From Seonamhaeicola algicola (GTDB lineage: Bacteria; Bacteroidota; Bacteroidia; Flavobacteriales; Flavobacteriaceae): a DNA stretch of 64,000 nucleotides. The stretch covers positions 434,001 through 498,000 of the forward strand of contig NZ_VOSC01000012.1 of assembly GCF_007997385.1 (NCBI RefSeq), in the 5' to 3' direction. The position numbers and the translations under genes were made by a program. Numbering within the stretch: the stretch's first letter is position 1; each line of letters opens with the position of its first letter. Below, one piece after another: positions 15,703 through 44,045 of the stretch. Under the pieces are notes generated by a model, which made no database searches, had not been told where the DNA came from, and saw only the letters and a list, made by a program, of their open reading frames with translations.

Positions 15703-15733
15703 AAAAAGCGCTCTTAAAAAGAGCGCTTTTTTT
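15703..15733. terminator. bidirectional terminator
   Basis: AAAAAGCGCTCTT / AAGAGCGCTTTTTTT hairpin between the convergent PBP and acetoacetyl-CoA synthetase genes. Confidence 0.8.
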
Positions 15734-17690
15734 ATATATTTTTAGCAAAATCAATATAAAAATCTACACATTCAGGGTTGCGCATAGCATCAATGTTTAT
15801 TGATTTTTCTACGGGCATTTTTAATAGAATTTTTTTAATAGGCGCTTCCATTTTTTTGCCACTAATGGTGTATGGAATATCTGCTACTTCAATAATTTCA
15901 TCGGGTACATGACGGGGCGAATAATCGTTTTTTAACTGATTGCAAATATCTTTTTTAACGGAATCATTTAATTTAAAACCTTGTTTTAACTTTACAAATA
16001 ATGGCATGTAGTGTTTACCACCTTCTAATTCAAGATTAATAATTAAGGCATCTTCTATAGCGTTTATTTTGTTAACGGCGCTGTAAATTTCGCTAGTGCC
16101 AATTCTAATTCCGTGCCTGTTTAATGTAGCATCAGAGCGCCCGTAAATAATTAACCCATTGGTTTCCGAATTAATTTTTATAAAATCGCCATGTCTCCAT
16201 TTGCCTGGGTAATCTTCAAAATAACTGGCTTTATATCTGCTGTTATCTTTATCATTCCAAAAGTAAATAGGCATTGACGGCATAGGCTTGTCTATTACCA
16301 TTTCTCCTAAATTATCTTCAATAGGTTTACCTAAATCATCTAAAGCAAATAATGAAACACCTAAGGCCCTACATTGAATTTCTCCGGCATGTACAGCATA
16401 AAAAGGTGTGCCACCAACAAATGCTGTACAAACATCGGTGCCACCAGCCATTGAGCATAACCAAACATCATGTTTAATGTTGTTATATACGTAATGAAAA
16501 GCTTCTGTAGGTAATGGTGCTCCCGTTGAGCTAATAGATTTTAAGGTATTTAATTTATGTGTTTTTTTAGGAGTCAATTCTTTTTTCATGTTGGCAACCA
16601 AATAAGGTGCACTGGTACCAAAATGGTTTATCTGTAAATTGTCTGTAAACGTCCAAAGCGCATCAAAATTAGGGTATGTTGGAGAGCCGTCGTATAATAC
16701 AATTGATGCACCCATAAGTAATGCCGATTGTAAAAAATTCCACATCATCCAACCAGTAGTTGTAAACCAAAAAAAGCGTTCGTTTTCATGTACATTGTTA
16801 TGAAAAGCCATGTATTTATAATGCTCAAGTAAAATACCTCCGTGAGAGTGTACAATGGCTTTTGGTAAACCTGTAGTGCCCGATGAGTATAGTACCCACA
16901 TTGGGTGATTAAAATCTACGGGAGTAAAGGTTAATTCTTCACCCTTTTTGTTAAGTATGGTGTTTATGTTTTCACAATTTTCATCAAAATAATTTAAAGC
17001 ATTTTCATTTAAATAAGGCTGAATAATTACCTTTTTAAGTGTTGGTAATGCTGCAATAATTGCTTTTACAGTGTTGGTTTTATCAAAAGGTTTGCTGTTG
17101 TAAGTATAACCATCAGTAGCAATAAGTACTTTAGGTTTAATTTGAGAAAACCTGTTTACAACACTTTCAGTACCAAAATCTGGTGAAGTGCTAGACCATA
17201 CAGCACCTAAAGCATTTGTGGCTAAAAAAGCTATGGTGGCTTCGGGCACATTAGGTAAAAATGCTACAACACAATCGTTTTTTTTAACGCCTAAGGTTTT
17301 TAAATAGCTTGCCATGGCGGCTACTTTTTCTTTTAATTGTGCCCATGTAATTTTAGTTTGTTTGCCTAATTCATTTTTAAAAAATATTGCTGTTTTGTTG
17401 GGTTGTATTTGTTTAAAAATATGCTCACTATAGTTTAAAGTAGCGCCTTCAAACCATTTGCAATTTGGCATATTATAACCAGATAATACTTTTTTATAAG
17501 GCGTATGCGATGTTATTTTGAAATAATACCACAGGCTTTCCCAAAAAGCTTCGGTGTTTGAAATAGACCATTGCCATAATTGCTCATAACTGTCAAATGT
17601 TAAATTTTTATGGTCCTTTAACCAGTTACAGTAGGTTTGTAAATGACTATGCTCTTTAAATAACTTAGAGGGTTGCCAAAGTTTTTTCAT
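15732..17690 (-). CDS. acetoacetate-CoA ligase
   Basis: 652-aa ATP-dependent acyl-CoA synthetase (ANL superfamily) of the acetoacetyl-CoA synthetase type, activating acetoacetate for lipid or poly-hydroxyacid metabolism. The AMP-binding core has YSSGTTGLPKAIVHSHGG; further family features are the N-terminal FEGATLNYSEH, SSTSPDFGTESVVNRFSQIK, and the C-terminal SDATLNRHGIRIGTSEIY and YTISGKKMEAPIKKIL with the catalytic Lys. The length matches the family. A promoter box lies upstream at 17749. Assignment of acetoacetate over another acid is by overall resemblance. Confidence 0.88.
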   Translation of the reverse strand: MKKLWQPSKLFKEHSHLQTYCNWLKDHKNLTFDSYEQLWQWSISNTEAFWESLWYYFKITSHTPYKKVLSGYNMPNCKWFEGATLNYSEHIFKQIQPNKTAIFFKNELGKQTKITWAQLKEKVAAMASYLKTLGVKKNDCVVAFLPNVPEATIAFLATNALGAVWSSTSPDFGTESVVNRFSQIKPKVLIATDGYTYNSKPFDKTNTVKAIIAALPTLKKVIIQPYLNENALNYFDENCENINTILNKKGEELTFTPVDFNHPMWVLYSSGTTGLPKAIVHSHGGILLEHYKYMAFHNNVHENERFFWFTTTGWMMWNFLQSALLMGASIVLYDGSPTYPNFDALWTFTDNLQINHFGTSAPYLVANMKKELTPKKTHKLNTLKSISSTGAPLPTEAFHYVYNNIKHDVWLCSMAGGTDVCTAFVGGTPFYAVHAGEIQCRALGVSLFALDDLGKPIEDNLGEMVIDKPMPSMPIYFWNDKDNSRYKASYFEDYPGKWRHGDFIKINSETNGLIIYGRSDATLNRHGIRIGTSEIYSAVNKINAIEDALIINLELEGGKHYMPLFVKLKQGFKLNDSVKKDICNQLKNDYSPRHVPDEIIEVADIPYTISGKKMEAPIKKILLKMPVEKSINIDAMRNPECVDFYIDFAKNI

Positions 17691-17748
17691 AGGCTTAGTT
17701 TAATATGTTTAGTTGGTGGTTTTAGTAATTATATATTTTTCAATTACT

Positions 17749-39165: not shown

Positions 39166-40239
39166 ATGAACCCCAAACCTGCTATAAAAGGACGTGGCGC
39201 TCAGCTAAACGTCCCTAATCGTTTCTTTGAATTTAGCCATGAAACCCGCAATGATTTCTTAGAATATTGCCAAAAAGAAGGTGAATTACCCGATAAAAAT
39301 AAAACCAAATATTTAGAGGTGTTTCCTAAAACTATTGTAAACAAAGTTGAAAGCACTGATGTTGGTATGGCGTATTCTATGAATGCCTATCAGGGTTGTG
39401 AGCACGGTTGTATTTACTGTTACGCCAGAAACTCTCATGAGTATTGGGGTTACAGCGCTGGTTTAGATTTTGAAAGGCGTATTTTAGTAAAAAAAGAAGC
39501 GCCAAAATTATTAGAAGCACTTTTAAAAAAGAAAAGTTGGCAAGCTAAAACCATTGTAATGTCTGGTAACACAGATTGTTATCAGCCAGCCGAAAAGCAA
39601 TTTGAAATTACACGCCAATGTTTACACATATTTTTAAAATATAAACATCCCGTTGGAATTATTACAAAAAACGCACTAATTTTAAGAGATTTAGATGTTT
39701 TAAAAGCACTTGCTAATGATAATTTAATTAGCGTAAACATATCAATTACATCATTAACTGAAGATATTAGGCGTGTTTTAGAGCCCAGAACAGCAACTAT
39801 TAAAAAGCGATTAGAAACGGTTAAAGTGTTAAGTGATAATGGCATACCTGTTAATGTTATGATTGCGCCTATTATACCATCAATTAACAGCCATGAAATA
39901 TTACCGTTAGCAAAAGCAGCTTTTGATAACGGTGCGCTTTCAATTGGCCATACCATTGTTAGGTTAAACGGTGCTATTGGTACTATTTTTACAGATTGGA
40001 TAAAGAAAACAATGCCAGATAGGGCAGATAAAGTTTTGCATCAAATAGAAAATTGCCATGGTGGAAGTTTAAATGATAGCAGATATGGAACACGTATGCG
40101 TGGTGAAGGTAAAATAGCCGAACAAATAAATAGTTTAGTAAAATTAGCTAGGTTAAAATATTTTAAAAATAAAGGTATGCCAATACTAAACACTAGTTTG
40201 TATGAGCAGTACAAACAAGGTCAATTAAAATTGTTTTAA
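39166..40239 (+). CDS. radical SAM protein, PA0069/SplB-like
   Basis: 357-aa radical SAM enzyme. The 4Fe-4S motif is C78-x3-C82-x2-C85 in QGCEHGCIYCYARNSHEYWG, typical of the PA0069/Rv2578c family related to spore photoproduct lyase. Later motifs are VMSGNTDCYQPAEKQ and PVGIITKNALILRD. The reaction is unknown for the family. It is monocistronic, ending at a strong terminator shared with the first of the triplicated secreted proteins. Confidence 0.87.
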   Translation: MNPKPAIKGRGAQLNVPNRFFEFSHETRNDFLEYCQKEGELPDKNKTKYLEVFPKTIVNKVESTDVGMAYSMNAYQGCEHGCIYCYARNSHEYWGYSAGLDFERRILVKKEAPKLLEALLKKKSWQAKTIVMSGNTDCYQPAEKQFEITRQCLHIFLKYKHPVGIITKNALILRDLDVLKALANDNLISVNISITSLTEDIRRVLEPRTATIKKRLETVKVLSDNGIPVNVMIAPIIPSINSHEILPLAKAAFDNGALSIGHTIVRLNGAIGTIFTDWIKKTMPDRADKVLHQIENCHGGSLNDSRYGTRMRGEGKIAEQINSLVKLARLKYFKNKGMPILNTSLYEQYKQGQLKLF

Positions 40240-40241
40240 AT

Positions 40242-40275
40242 AAAAAAACGGGTCTTTTTTTAAGACCCGTTTTTG
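40242..40275. terminator. bidirectional terminator
   Basis: AAAAACGGGTCTT / AAGACCCGTTTTT hairpin between the convergent radical SAM gene and secreted paralog A. Confidence 0.8.
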
Positions 40276-40313
40276 CAAAACTAAACTAAATAAGAATTTT
40301 AAATTACTTATTA

Positions 40314-40910
40314 TTAATTATTGATATACTTTGTGAATTCTTTACCATCAAAGTTGAAAACAATTTTGTATTTACCAGATTCTAATTTGTAAACACGCTC
40401 AATGGTTTTTTCATCTTTAATAGTTTCATTAAATAAAAGATCTGTTACTGTGTTGTAAACACCATAAACACTTACTTTTAAAGGCTCGCCATTTAAAGCC
40501 AGTTTAGTAATTAATACTAAATCGTCTTTTTGCCTTACAAAAGGTTTAAAAGTAGTTGTTTCGGCATTTTTGTTAAATGAAACTACAGTGTCCTTTACGT
40601 TAAAAGGAATGGTTTTAATTTCCATATCTTTTTCTAATTCAAAAAAGTAGTTGCCATCTGGTAAATCGGTTAAATCAAAACCTTTTGAGTACATACCAGT
40701 CTGCTCAATTACTTCCTTATATAATGTCACTCCATATATATCTTTAATAGATAATAGGTTACCTTCTTTTACATTGTTAATTGTTAATGCAGTTCCTCTT
40801 AAATCTTTACCAAATTTAATTAGAGAAATTTCGTTTGCATAACCCATAACCGCAGCCAACATTGCTACCATTAAGATTACTTTTTTAGTGTGTGTGAATA
40901 CGTTTTTCAT
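40314..40910 (-). CDS. tandem secreted protein, paralog A
   Basis: 198-aa secreted protein, family unknown. A signal peptide at residues 1-25 (KVILMVAMLAAVMGYA) is followed by a beta-rich mature domain with VKEGNLLSIKDIYGVTLYKE, FDLTDLPDGNYFFELEKDME and the C-terminal FNFDGKEFTKYINN. The LPDGNYFFEL part loosely recalls beta-sandwich modules of Bacteroidota surface proteins. It is about three-quarters identical to paralog B (nearly identical over residues 28-105) and about half identical to paralog C. It has its own promoter box and terminator. Confidence 0.75.
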   Translation of the reverse strand: MKNVFTHTKKVILMVAMLAAVMGYANEISLIKFGKDLRGTALTINNVKEGNLLSIKDIYGVTLYKEVIEQTGMYSKGFDLTDLPDGNYFFELEKDMEIKTIPFNVKDTVVSFNKNAETTTFKPFVRQKDDLVLITKLALNGEPLKVSVYGVYNTVTDLLFNETIKDEKTIERVYKLESGKYKIVFNFDGKEFTKYINN

Positions 40911-40937
40911 GATTTGGATAATTTAACGTTTACACTG

Positions 40938-40945
40938 CAAATATA
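40938..40945 (-). promoter_or_regulatory. minus-7 promoter box of paralog A
   Basis: TATATTTG on the minus strand matches TAnnTTTG; 27 bp before the ATG and 11 bp from the conserved 40-bp block. Confidence 0.7.
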
Positions 40946-40956
40946 TGGTGGTTTAT

Positions 40957-40996
40957 AAGTGTGTAAAACATTGATTTTGACTAATTTATATGCTAT
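40957..40996 (-). promoter_or_regulatory. conserved 40-bp upstream block A
   Basis: In the 455-bp gap 40911-41365. It shares AAGTGTGTAAAACATTGA and ATTTATATGCTAT (plus-strand reading) with the blocks at 42008-42047 and 43014-43053, always 11 bp from the promoter box. Probably a regulator site plus the minus-33 region. Beyond it, to about 41100, similarity to the other upstream regions fades; the rest holds nothing I can identify before the terminator at 41303. Confidence 0.6.
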
Positions 40997-41302
40997 ATTA
41001 TCTGTTAAATATATGCTAAGTTTATGTTAAGTCAATATGCCATAACTTGGTGTTAAAAATGTACATATTGCATAGTGCAAGTGTGCCATGGTATAACTTA
41101 AAATAGTAAGCTAATGGCATGGTTTAAAAGCAGTTGTTAAAAACGTTTAAATAGAGCTTTAATTGTATTAGGTTTATAAAGCGAGAGTTTAATTTTTGAA
41201 GTTTTTAATAAATTAAAAGTGAAGTAATTTAAATTTAACCTGTATTATTTTAAGTAAACTTTTATGCTAGTTAGTTATTAAATAGAATTATATAAAAAAA
41301 AG

Positions 41303-41328
41303 AAAGCGAGCCAAAAGGGCTCGCTTTA
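41303..41328 (-). terminator. terminator of paralog B
   Basis: AAAGCGAGCC / GGCTCGCTTT hairpin 37 bp beyond the stop of paralog B. Confidence 0.75.
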
Positions 41329-41365
41329 TCAAAACTAAACAAAATAAGAACTAATAAACTTTATA

Positions 41366-41962
41366 TTAATTATTTATATACTTGGTGTATTCTTTACCGT
41401 CAAAATTGAAAACCATTTTGTATTTACCAGCGCTTAATTTGTAAACACGTTCAATGTTTTTTGTGTTTTCAATTGTTTCATCTAATAAAAGTTCAGCATC
41501 ATTTTCATCTAAACCATATACAGTAATCTCCATAGGTTCAGCGTTTAAGGCTAATTTAGTTACATAAACTAAACCGTTACTTTCTCTAACAAATGGTTTG
41601 AAAGTTGTAGTTTCTTCAGTTTTATTAAAAGTAACTTTTGTTGCATTTACGGTAAAAGGTATGGTTTTAATTTCCATGTCTTTTTCTAATTCAAAAAAGT
41701 AGTTTCCATCAGGTAAATCAGTTAAATCAAAACCTTTTGTGTATAAGCCGCTTTGCTCAATTACTTCTTTATATAAAGTTATGCCGTAAATATCTTTAAT
41801 AGATAATAGGTTTCCTTCCTTTACATTTTCAATTGTTAATGCAGTTCCTCTTAAATCTTTACCAAATTTAATTAAAGAAATCTCGTTTGCATTTGCTATA
41901 ACCGTAGCTAACATTGCTACCATTACAATTACTGTTTTTGTGTGTGATAATACGTTTTTCAT
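41366..41962 (-). CDS. tandem secreted protein, paralog B
   Basis: 198-aa secreted protein, same family as paralogs A and C. Signal peptide 1-26 (VIVMVAMLATVIANA), then a mature domain almost identical to A up to about residue 105; the C-terminal half diverges (VYGLDENDAELLLDETIENT) before the shared KYKMVFNFDGKEYTKYINN-type end. The conserved N-terminal half and variable C-terminal half suggest selection for divergence in the exposed part, or partial gene conversion. Monocistronic with its own promoter and terminator. Confidence 0.75.
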   Translation of the reverse strand: MKNVLSHTKTVIVMVAMLATVIANANEISLIKFGKDLRGTALTIENVKEGNLLSIKDIYGITLYKEVIEQSGLYTKGFDLTDLPDGNYFFELEKDMEIKTIPFTVNATKVTFNKTEETTTFKPFVRESNGLVYVTKLALNAEPMEITVYGLDENDAELLLDETIENTKNIERVYKLSAGKYKMVFNFDGKEYTKYINN

Positions 41963-41988
41963 GATCTGGATTATTAACGTTTACACTG

Positions 41989-41996
41989 CAAATATA
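41989..41996 (-). promoter_or_regulatory. minus-7 promoter box of paralog B
   Basis: TATATTTG on the minus strand, in the same position relative to the ATG and upstream block as for paralog A. Confidence 0.7.
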
Positions 41997-42007
41997 GGGC
42001 GGCTTTT

Positions 42008-42047
42008 AAGTGTGTAAAACATTGATTTTGACTAATTTATATGCTAT
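42008..42047 (-). promoter_or_regulatory. conserved 40-bp upstream block B
   Basis: In the 411-bp gap 41963-42373. All 40 bases match block A: AAGTGTGTAAAACATTGATT through ATATGCTAT. It lies 11 bp from the promoter box. Confidence 0.65.
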
Positions 42048-42112
42048 TTTAACCCTGTTTTTATTCGCTTTTTATAACCAGGTTAATATGGTGTATTGGC
42101 ATGTTAATTTTG

Positions 42113-42131
42113 CATATATTTAGTACTATAC
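42113..42131 (+). repeat. 19-bp copy of the regulator promoter sequence
   Basis: GTTAATTTTGCATATATTT is identical to 43088-43106 in front of the AraC regulator, but the box here reads TATATTTA and no plus-strand gene follows. It looks like a relic of a duplicated divergent promoter. Confidence 0.6.
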
Positions 42132-42315
42132 ACATGTTGTTGTTACTACAACTTTTTATTAATAATTTTTTTTTGAAGCTTATGCTGAAATAGATTAGTA
42201 TTCTTTTTGAAGTATAAATGCTATACCTTTTAAAAAGTTAAGCATTAGTGTAATGAAAATTAAAATGCAGAAATTTTGTGAGCAATAATTTTGAAGTAAT
42301 TAGAAAAGCATAGAC

Positions 42316-42346
42316 AAAAAAAAGTGGGCCACCACAGCCCACTTTT
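42316..42346 (-). terminator. terminator of paralog C
   Basis: AAAAGTGGGC / GCCCACTTTT hairpin (loop CACCACA), 28 bp beyond the stop of paralog C. Confidence 0.75.
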
Positions 42347-42373
42347 ACCAACTAAACTAAATAAGACATTAAA

Positions 42374-42967
42374 CTAATTATTAATGAATTTTGTAAAATC
42401 TTTATTATTTGAATTAAAGACTATTTTATAATTACCAGACTCAAGTCTATATATTTTTTCAATAGATTGAGTACCTGTTATTGTTTCGGTGTATAATAAT
42501 TCTTCTGAATTTCCATTGTCAATGCCATAAACATTAACAGTAAAAGCTTCTCCTTTTGGCGAAAGTTTAGTTACATAAACTAAATCTTCTTTAACAACAA
42601 CAACTGGTTTATGATATATTGTTTCACTGTTGCTTTTAAAGTTTACTTTGTTATTATTAACTGAAAAAGGAATGGTTTTTATTTCAACATCTTTTTCTAA
42701 TTCAAAAAAGTAGTTGCCTTCTGGTAGCGCAGTTAAATCAAAACCTTTAGTATAAATACCATCTTGTTTAATTAACTCTTTATATAAAGTTACGCCGTAA
42801 GCATCTTTAATGGTAAGTAAATTACCTTCTTTCACATTATTTAAAGTAATAGCTGTTTTAGCAGCATCTTTTACTATTGTATTATCATTAGAAGCATAAC
42901 TAATAACAGAAGCTGCCATTGCTACTATTATAAATCCTTTTCTAGTATGTTTTAATAATGTGTTCAT
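42374..42967 (-). CDS. tandem secreted protein, paralog C
   Basis: 197-aa secreted protein, the most divergent of the three. I start at ATG 42967 (MNTLLKHTRKGFIIVAMAAS); a frame from 42997 would run through the promoter box. After the signal peptide (to about residue 27), VKEGNLLTIKDAYGVTLYKE and FDLTALPEGNYFFELEKDVE keep the family core, and the end is NSNNKDFTKFINN. It lies next to the divergent AraC regulator, which suggests it is the ancestral copy. Function unknown. Confidence 0.75.
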   Translation of the reverse strand: MNTLLKHTRKGFIIVAMAASVISYASNDNTIVKDAAKTAITLNNVKEGNLLTIKDAYGVTLYKELIKQDGIYTKGFDLTALPEGNYFFELEKDVEIKTIPFSVNNNKVNFKSNSETIYHKPVVVVKEDLVYVTKLSPKGEAFTVNVYGIDNGNSEELLYTETITGTQSIEKIYRLESGNYKIVFNSNNKDFTKFINN

Positions 42968-42994
42968 GTTTTGTGTTATTGTTTGATAACGGTA

Positions 42995-43002
42995 CAAAGA
43001 TA
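42995..43002 (-). promoter_or_regulatory. minus-7 promoter box of paralog C
   Basis: TATCTTTG on the minus strand matches TAnnTTTG, 27 bp before the ATG. Confidence 0.7.
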
Positions 43003-43013
43003 TGGCAGTTGTA

Positions 43014-43053
43014 AAGGGTGGAAAACATCAATTTTAGCAAGTTTATATGCTAT
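43014..43053 (-). promoter_or_regulatory. conserved 40-bp upstream block C
   Basis: Diverged copy of blocks A and B: GGAAAACATCAATTTT, then GTTTATATGCTATTTTAACC, again 11 bp from the promoter box. Conservation between diverged genes suggests a protein-binding site. Confidence 0.6.
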
Positions 43054-43099
43054 TTTAACCGTTAACAATATGTTAAATCACTGTTAAGTTAATTTTGCA

Positions 43100-43107
43100 T
43101 ATATTTG
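43100..43107 (+). promoter_or_regulatory. minus-7 promoter box of the AraC regulator
   Basis: TATATTTG matches TAnnTTTG, within the 19-bp sequence shared with 42113-42131; about 62 bp before the regulator ATG. Confidence 0.6.
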
Positions 43108-43169
43108 GGGTAATAAAATATATAATGTATGCATAATATATATTAATTTTGCATAAAAATCATCCCACT

Positions 43170-44045
43170 ATGATTACAAAGAAACCTACATTTAAAAAGC
43201 TTTCGCCATCATTTGGAGAGTCTGTACTGGTAAAACAGCATAATGATAAGCTAGACAGGGGCGAAATGTTTTGGCACTTTCATCCAGAATTAGAATTAAT
43301 TTATGTGAATAGAGGCCAAGGAAAAACACACATTGGAAACCATTTATCATACTTTAATAATAGTCAGCTTATATTAATAGGATCAAATTTACCGCATAAC
43401 GGATTTACCGATAGGCTAACAGCTGCTGGTATTGAAACAACCATACAGTTTAGACCAGATTTTTTAGGCGATGACTTTTTTAACTCGGTGCCTGAAGCCA
43501 ATGCAATAGGCATACTTTTTGAAAAAGCTAAAAATGGTATTCTATTTAATAGAGCAACTAAAGATGTTGTTGGATCTAAAATTGAAGATTTAGAAAACTA
43601 TAATGGCTTTAATAGAATTTTAAAGTTATTAGAAATTCTACAATATTTAGCAACAACCGATGATTATACTATTTTAAATGCCGATGGTTTTGTGTTTGAA
43701 GCTGAACCACAAGACACTGATAAAATTAAAACCATATACAAATTTGTAAATGCTAATTTTAAAGAACATATTGCTTTAGAAGACATTGCCGATAAGGTTA
43801 GTATGACAGTACCTGCTTTTTGTCGTTATTTTAAGAAAACAACAGGTAAAACATTTACACAAGTAGTAAATGAAATACGTATAGTACATGCTACAAAACT
43901 ATTAAATGAAAGCCAAATGAGTATTGCTGATATTTGTTTTGAGTGTGGTTTTAATAATTTTTCACACTTTAACAAGCAATTTAATGAGGTAATTGGTAAA
44001 AGTGCTTCTAATTACCGAAAAGAAATTAAGCAGATAATAGGTTAA
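43170..44045 (+). CDS. AraC family regulator beside the secreted-protein array
   Basis: 291-aa regulator. The N-terminal cupin-like domain (about 15-110) has GEMFWHFHPELELIYVNRGQ and NLPHNGFTDRLTAAG, typical of Bacteroidota AraC proteins sensing small molecules. The C-terminal AraC domain (about 190-291) has ALEDIADKVSMTVPAFCRYF and IADICFECGFNNFSHFNKQF. I start at ATG 43170; an in-frame TTG at 43149 is less likely. It is divergent from paralog C. Its end overlaps the convergent HD gene by 4 bp. Confidence 0.87.
   Translation: MITKKPTFKKLSPSFGESVLVKQHNDKLDRGEMFWHFHPELELIYVNRGQGKTHIGNHLSYFNNSQLILIGSNLPHNGFTDRLTAAGIETTIQFRPDFLGDDFFNSVPEANAIGILFEKAKNGILFNRATKDVVGSKIEDLENYNGFNRILKLLEILQYLATTDDYTILNADGFVFEAEPQDTDKIKTIYKFVNANFKEHIALEDIADKVSMTVPAFCRYFKKTTGKTFTQVVNEIRIVHATKLLNESQMSIADICFECGFNNFSHFNKQFNEVIGKSASNYRKEIKQIIG

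Follow-up and report, generated by a model that had tools for sequence, protein, structure and literature searches.

Flavobacteriia are major degraders of marine sugars, and few small RNAs (sRNAs) with known control have been described in them, the literature that we found being mainly on Flavobacterium psychrophilum. SgrS is an sRNA that represses sugar import under a dedicated regulator. Here we describe a locus in a 64,000-nucleotide stretch of the Seonamhaeicola algicola genome (contig NZ_VOSC01000012.1, positions 434,001 to 498,000; the whole stretch is referred to as the window), which comprises three tandem genes for small secreted proteins (paralogs A, B and C), a divergent gene for an AraC-family regulator and, closing the transcription unit nearest to that gene, a conserved RNA element. 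It resembles SgrS in that a candidate sRNA, with predicted targets, would act on sugar import under a dedicated regulator, and differs from it in the family of the regulator.

The CpxP/CpxQ system of enteric bacteria is described as a regulator-induced transcript that gives rise to both a protein and a demonstrated sRNA from its 3' untranslated region (UTR) (PMC4817254). The present locus likewise appears to yield a protein and a 3' UTR RNA from one regulator-induced transcript, the sRNA being putative here and demonstrated in the case of CpxQ. Unlike CpxP/CpxQ, which is governed by a two-component system, it has an AraC/cupin regulator and tandem paralogs, and the RNA is also found behind a promoter without an open reading frame (ORF). 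In Bacteroides thetaiotaomicron the sRNAs FopS and GibS are reported to bind mRNAs for carbohydrate uptake next to their start codons; one FopS member derives from a 3' UTR, and FopS uses its 5' end for pairing and acts on SusC homologs (PMC11697453). The word AraC is absent from the main text of that paper. By their descriptions, our element resembles FopS/GibS as an RNA of the Bacteroidota with predicted pairing next to the start codons of carbohydrate-uptake genes, but unlike FopS it would pair through the stretch before its terminator and its predicted targets are mainly porters. Rfp18 of F. psychrophilum is a conserved flavobacterial sRNA with predicted mRNA targets, which are metalloproteases (PMC9723704); the likeness is again one of description, and the targets predicted here are mainly sugar porters instead.

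We propose that an AraC switch at this locus controls two products, namely secreted proteins of Ig-like fold and an sRNA that would probably repress carbohydrate uptake, a reading to which we give about an even chance. A local AraC regulator with a cupin-like sensor domain would activate a small private set of promoters, each with a regulatory block abutting the -33 region and inverted half-sites further upstream, in a manner resembling class II activation. One output would consist of small secreted two-domain Ig/FN3-like proteins, multiplied through tandem duplication. The other would be a 3'-end RNA in which an unpaired UCUUAUUUAGUUUAGUUGGU stretch precedes a terminator hairpin, present as the 3' UTR of paralog C in the window and, in relatives, after the proximal promoter without an ORF. 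This RNA would most likely act in trans, blocking the translation of sugar porters and other carbohydrate genes by pairing where their start codons lie. We infer each of these steps, from AraC binding through transcription and processing to trans action and targets, by comparison of sequences. Possible rather than probable is a fuller version, a flavobacterial carbon-control circuit in which a cupin/AraC sensor would drive Ig-like proteins together with an undescribed sRNA that blocks sugar-importer translation, the sRNA having passed from an mRNA 3' UTR to a stand-alone gene via loss of the ORF.

Scanning for the promoter module revealed AraC-adjacent promoters with no ORF of at least 45 amino acids behind them, leading to the 3'-end sequence of paralog C. 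All 19 genomes that carry the canonical element have an AraC-proximal unit ending in it. This unit is directly seen to be ORF-less in 12 of them, from eight genera, and in the other seven the element is the 3' UTR of the proximal gene. The secreted gene itself is without the canonical element in four of the 12 (L061, L065, L066 and L071), and inspection by eye found no conserved small ORF in the ORF-less units. In the seven genomes where the element is a 3' UTR, the proximal genes share 95.5% identity over the 50 nucleotides that follow the stop codon, compared with 68.0% for the ORF, and UTR identity exceeds that of the ORF in 21 of 21 pairs. A larger comparison of 18 genes from nine genera (123 between-genus pairs) gave 93.5% for the UTR, 67.8% for the ORF, 77.5% for the module and 63.9% for downstream DNA. 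The terminator stem covaries, with three pairs changed on both sides. A covariance model, run with strict filters and 25 candidates scored per genome, detected the element in 25 of 197 genomes at E≤1e-2; at E≤1e-5 it gave 35 hits from 20 genomes, every one of them at these loci. The hallmark of a 3' UTR-derived sRNA, a conserved 3' UTR ending in an intrinsic terminator, is thus found at AraC-proximal genes and not at distal paralogs generally. By these comparisons the 3' RNA element is the most conserved product of the proximal unit, and we infer that it is also made as its own transcript.

Rfam returned no family match at the element in the window and six other loci, and nothing reached its gathering score between positions 40200 and 43300 of the window with E up to 10; SraG, the L20 leader, BTnc049 and others scored far under their cut-offs. 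Judged by titles and the openings of abstracts, our literature searches brought up no paper on the locus or the RNA. Elsewhere in the window, a Flavo-1 RNA (RF01705) lies at 1520-1668 on the minus strand, with 48.5 bits over a gathering score of 42. In L059 and L062 (from G023 and G078) two tandem copies of the 3' element lie between secreted genes, and the number of TTTAG repeats within the element varies.

Several observations weigh against this picture of the element. The 18 genes were picked for carrying a 15-nucleotide core, and UTR identity without that core is 90.1%. When all 36 secreted genes of the same nine genera are compared, UTR identity is 73.6% against 67.4% for the ORF, and the UTR is the more similar in 281 of 476 pairs; set beside the 95.5% of the proximal genes, this value suggests that distal paralogs vary freely and the proximal unit does not. 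A conserved hairpin before the unpaired stretch was considered and rejected, as a canonical stem of 6 bp was matched in about a third of shuffles, and this stem is not part of the minimum-energy fold. In the same test on other units, 11 of 43 reached p≤0.05, some via terminators or sites outside the UTR.

At least two of the ORF-less units, and probably more, arose from a secreted gene via ORF loss, because those of L061 and L066 keep the secreted-gene leader and start codon (E 2e-8 and 7e-8), and those of L060, L065 and L067 weakly resemble the end of the secreted ORF (E 2e-4 to 2e-3); 8 of the 12 interiors have some match at E≤0.01. The same traces favour an alternative in which the 3' element is only a cis-acting feature of the mRNA, a site for stability or an RNA-binding protein together with a terminator, so that no sRNA acts in trans and the ORF-less units are decaying remnants. 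Repeats of the UUAGUU type are over-represented, too, in a further 56 3' UTRs from the family, as expected for a protein-binding site (TAGTT was seen 52 times compared with 7.4 in mononucleotide shuffles; in 56 neighbour genes, 7 times compared with 2.8). Decaying remnants, however, would hardly retain both the module and the 3' element across eight genera while the interior is lost. Nor would they be expected to stay beside AraC in G020 and G008, where the secreted genes lie elsewhere and an ORF-less unit with UUUAGU or UUAGUU repeats and a terminator remains next to the regulator gene (the G020 unit is also found by the covariance model, E 0.007; the G008 unit lacks a TAnnTTTG box at offset 58, counted from the start of the block). 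We consider the purely cis-acting role unlikely, if still a serious contender.

A further explanation is that AraC controls only the duplicated secreted family and that gene conversion has kept the 3' sequence, a terminator, uniform. In line with conversion, the 3' ends of copies in the same genome can be identical, as are three in L058, and distal paralogs often carry a different one. Yet the element is kept between genera, beyond the reach of conversion within a genome, its terminator stem varies with compensation, and the ORF-less units have no protein for AraC to control. This explanation is improbable.

Candidate targets were sought as complements of CUUAUUUAGUUUAGUUGGU with up to three mismatches in seven genomes of the genus, using the reversed pattern as a control. 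Sixteen of the 84 complement matches are the element itself, and the other 68 were all inspected along with all 44 reversed matches. Sites within -3 to +10 nucleotides of an ATG, many of them at sugar genes, number 15 of 68, compared with 2 of 44 for the reversed pattern (p=0.014). The 16 genes with a start codon near the site are two aldose epimerases, three Sugar_tr porters, two glycoside hydrolases, two other MFS proteins, one SSS symporter, a symporter small subunit, a TonB receptor, ThuA, DUF5107, ribosomal L23 and one without a family. The six control genes from the reversed pattern include one glycoside hydrolase. Among Sugar_tr genes of the genus (E≤1e-20; starts dropped by an earlier motif filter have been restored), 10 of 27 starts have a duplex energy of -13 kcal/mol or lower, compared with 5 of 115 other genes (p=2e-5), three of the 27 (L282, L300 and L301) appearing to be misassigned. 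Removing the three genes already found leaves 7 of 24 against 5 of 115 (p=9e-4).

On the other side of the balance, the range of -3 to +10 was fixed after the data had been seen, and the presence of any start codon of a plausible ORF near the site does not separate the two patterns (16 of 68 compared with 6 of 44, p=0.23). The Sugar_tr test was chosen post hoc and includes orthologs from sister species. For an earlier set of 19 genes, of 200 shuffled seeds 1 equalled the observed mean difference and 14 equalled the rank p-value; with the reversed seed p was 0.022 and the difference was smaller. The window's own genome has five complement sites outside the element (up to three mismatches), none of them at a start codon, and pairing at its single Sugar_tr gene (E≤1e-20) is no more than moderate, at -11.6. 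The action of the RNA on sugar-porter start regions is thus a provisional proposal, and trans action on sugar uptake is plausible; the complementarity at start codons fits the action of FopS at start codons and may serve as a lead, not as proof. Within the window, a predicted site precedes the ORF at 15732-17690, whose product of 652 amino acids looks by eye like an acetoacetyl-CoA synthetase. Complements of the RNA stretch also occur at 1501-1519 in both L155 and L157, just past the stop codons of genes that we named by eye as proton-pumping pyrophosphatases.

These units are preceded by a conserved promoter module. As the initial annotation had described, each paralog has its own TAnnTTTG box, a block 11 bp from it and its own terminator, the blocks of A and B being identical over 40 bases and that of C diverged; the upstream inverted half-sites and the conserved 3' RNA element escaped that annotation. 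The TAnnTTTG box is placed at -12 to -5 (PMC9723704). A 65-base module pattern allowing up to three mismatches has exactly three matches in the 3.7-Mb genome, one per paralog, compared with none for the reversed pattern in the same genome; a pattern scan of 118 genomes gave 49 matches in 22 of them and none for the reversed pattern. A wider regulon in the window's genome was considered and rejected, as a looser pattern adds only five matches, with two or three mismatches, compared with one for its reverse.

The refined block matrix scores above 12 in 77 of 88 upstream regions; most of the other 11 either lack a module or have their start codon placed too far upstream. Of the 77, 75 have the TAnnTTTG box at offset 58, counted from the start of the block, though it is absent from the matrix. 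AraC/XylS regulators bind tandem half-sites about 21 bp apart near -35. Inverted half-sites occur at exactly -45 in 63 of 100 modules and at -66 in 23 of 100, in a 21-bp register, compared with four hits in 100 shuffled regions. Within the block, the similarity of a direct repeat at 21 bp is only a local maximum, and a spacing of 12 bp scores higher. The initial annotation had staked its reading on the block occurring in relatives, and it is present there before distant secreted homologs, with AraC co-occurring; the proteins concerned are as little as 20-40% identical to A. Because 55 of 58 genomes have AraC nearby in divergent orientation and the offset of the box is fixed, we regard the block, on this comparative evidence, as a real regulatory module. 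Its link to the regulator is strongly supported, and AraC presumably binds it; as the block adjoins the -33 region, activation may be of a class II-like kind. It is very improbable that the block serves another factor that merely happens to be linked, given that the only three module sites in the genome lie beside this AraC gene, that the linkage recurs so widely and that like half-sites adjoin AraC orthologs in L168, L169 and L170 (same class, not listed as the same order).

Module-driven peptides of about 33-45 amino acids, each with one hydrophobic segment, are found near AraC in four loci (L050 at 8993 and L052 at 9106, both minus strand; L056 at 4429 and L122 at 5976, both plus strand). 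They are a third kind of module output, of which none was seen in the window. In G001 a module about 50 kb from the cluster (L120, 4493, plus strand) precedes a short ORF of about 36 amino acids.

The regulator is transcribed away from paralog C, as noted initially, from an ATG at 43170 on the plus strand, the ORF listing extending to a possible alternative TTG at 43149. Its C-terminal double helix-turn-helix scores 76.3 bits with HTH_18 (cut-off 33.6), and its N-terminal domain falls below the cut-offs of AraC_binding (17.3 bits compared with 21.1) and Cupin_2 (16.6 compared with 27.2). Residues H36, H38, E42, P75, H76 and G78, which we take to be a cupin ligand-domain motif, are invariant across 42 AraC orthologs. 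Identity to the regulator of the window ranges from 46 to 92% (42 rows), compared with 19 to 76% to paralog A for the secreted protein (53 rows), so that the regulator is the better conserved.

A profile of the three paralogs matches 64 of 197 genomes, the window's included, and 60 stretches were taken from 57 of the 63 others; G124, G125, G138, G156, G172 and G180, with weak matches mostly within long ORFs, were left out. Carriers of secreted genes include Seonamhaeicola, Aestuariivivens, Algibacter, Flavivirga, Tamlana, Yeosuana, Lacinutrix, Oceanihabitans and Formosa, among others. A wider profile (148 of 197 genomes) pulled in sorting domains of large proteins and was excluded from the counts, as were L108 (the same place as L136), the AraC ORF of L076 and duplicate start regions. 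The AraC ortholog is divergent and close in 55 of 58 genomes, the window counted, the copy of G032 being split in two pieces. The exceptions are G020 and G008, which have the ortholog elsewhere in the genome, and G086, where no ortholog reaches E≤1e-80. Extra unlinked copies of the secreted gene accompany the linked ones in G078 and G090.

Across the class, the regulator is found at E≤1e-80 in 15 of 295 genomes. Nine of the 14 others were fetched, in addition to G122 and G135 taken earlier, leaving out G253, G383 and G485. The nine loci have a similar two-domain secreted neighbour in five cases (the ORF of L170 being in two pieces), a shorter one in three and none in one, with homology judged by eye, and half-sites scoring at least 13 in the promoter direction occur at four of the nine. 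The AraC orthologs of L168, L169, L170 and L174, which belong to the same class and are not listed as the same order, adjoin small secreted proteins of like make-up.

The initial annotation had read the locus as a regulator-controlled family of secreted proteins amplified by duplication. This agrees with the AraC linkage and with the block in relatives, but is incomplete, since it left the RNA element out of account; in 12 genomes the proximal promoter leads to that element without an ORF, so that an amplified protein family accounts for only part of the locus. The gene order itself is observed as proposed, with three paralogs of 197-198 amino acids head to tail on the minus strand between 40314 and 42967 and the AraC gene divergent from C, the last of them. 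B is 76% and C 58% identical to A, and alignment upholds the better conservation of the N-terminal half.

An AlphaFold model of the secreted protein (mean pLDDT 87.7) has a signal-like helix followed by two beta-sandwich domains. In structure comparison the C-terminal domain (residues 121-198) adopts an Ig-like beta-sandwich fold, matching DUF3244 structure 3d33 (Z 9.7, root mean square deviation 1.9, 75 residues), with which FN3 domains tie in Z, and the C-terminal domain of RgpB, 5ag8 (Z 9.5, deviation 1.7, 64 residues). The likeness to DUF3244 proteins and to the C-terminal domain of type IX secretion system (T9SS) cargo lies in the fold of this domain; unlike them, the paralogs have two domains in tandem, and their Pfam scores lie below the curated cut-offs. 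Membership of DUF3244 (PF11589) was rejected, C scoring 20.5 bits with a cut-off of 25 and A and B not being listed. The N-terminal domain of A and B resembles a T9SS sorting domain below the cut-off. A classification as T9SS cargo with a type A sorting domain was rejected as well; for A the best match (residues 42-96, 19 bits compared with 27) is not C-terminal and a second profile gave 17.6 bits with a cut-off of 23 (residues 43-100). A sequence search of solved structures returned nothing convincing for the family. According to the model, then, the secreted proteins are two Ig/FN3-like beta-sandwich domains in tandem; a binding role at the surface or in the periplasm is a guess.

Table 1. 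Features of the locus and a candidate target site (window coordinates)
Feature	Position	Strand	Basis
Canonical 3' RNA element, candidate sRNA: last codons and stop of C, unpaired UCUUAUUUAGUUUAGUUGGU stretch, terminator hairpin	42316..42386	-	
Diverged copy of 3' element after B	41294..41350	-	
Diverged copy of 3' element after A (E 0.004)	40242..40296	-	covariance model
Regulatory block of A, putative AraC operator	40965..41002	-	matrix and pattern scan
Regulatory block of B	42016..42053	-	matrix and pattern scan
Regulatory block of C	43022..43059	-	matrix and pattern scan
TAnnTTTG box of A, predicted +1 near 40933	40938..40945	-	
TAnnTTTG box of B, predicted +1 near 41984	41989..41996	-	
TAnnTTTG box of C, predicted +1 near 42990	42995..43002	-	
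Inverted half-site 45 bp upstream of block C	43088..43105	+	
Weaker inverted half-site of block C, 21 bp beyond that at 43088-43105	43109-43126	+	
Inverted half-site 66 bp upstream of block B	42103..42120	+	
Inverted half-site, weak, 66 bp upstream of block A	41052..41069	+	
AraC-family regulator, N-terminal cupin-like domain (below cut-off), C-terminal HTH_18	43170..44045	+	profile search, orthologs
Paralog A, secreted two-domain Ig-like protein, 198 aa	40314..40910	-	ORF and alignment; fold from structure model
Paralog B, 198 aa	41366..41962	-	ORF and alignment
Paralog C, 197 aa from its ATG, AraC-proximal	42374..42967	-	ORF and alignment
Candidate target site, 11-nt perfect complement, 17 nt before ATG of ORF 15732-17690	17688..17720	-	prediction

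With one regulator, three promoters and one conserved RNA, the locus is a compact, testable unit. The 3' UTR and ORF-less forms behind the same promoter constitute a natural series from the tail of an mRNA to an sRNA gene and, if this is true, the birth of an sRNA gene from a duplicated mRNA could be read stepwise in living species. Should the predicted targets hold, an AraC sensor would be tied to a shut-off of sugar uptake at the post-transcriptional level, a parallel to SgrS and FopS.

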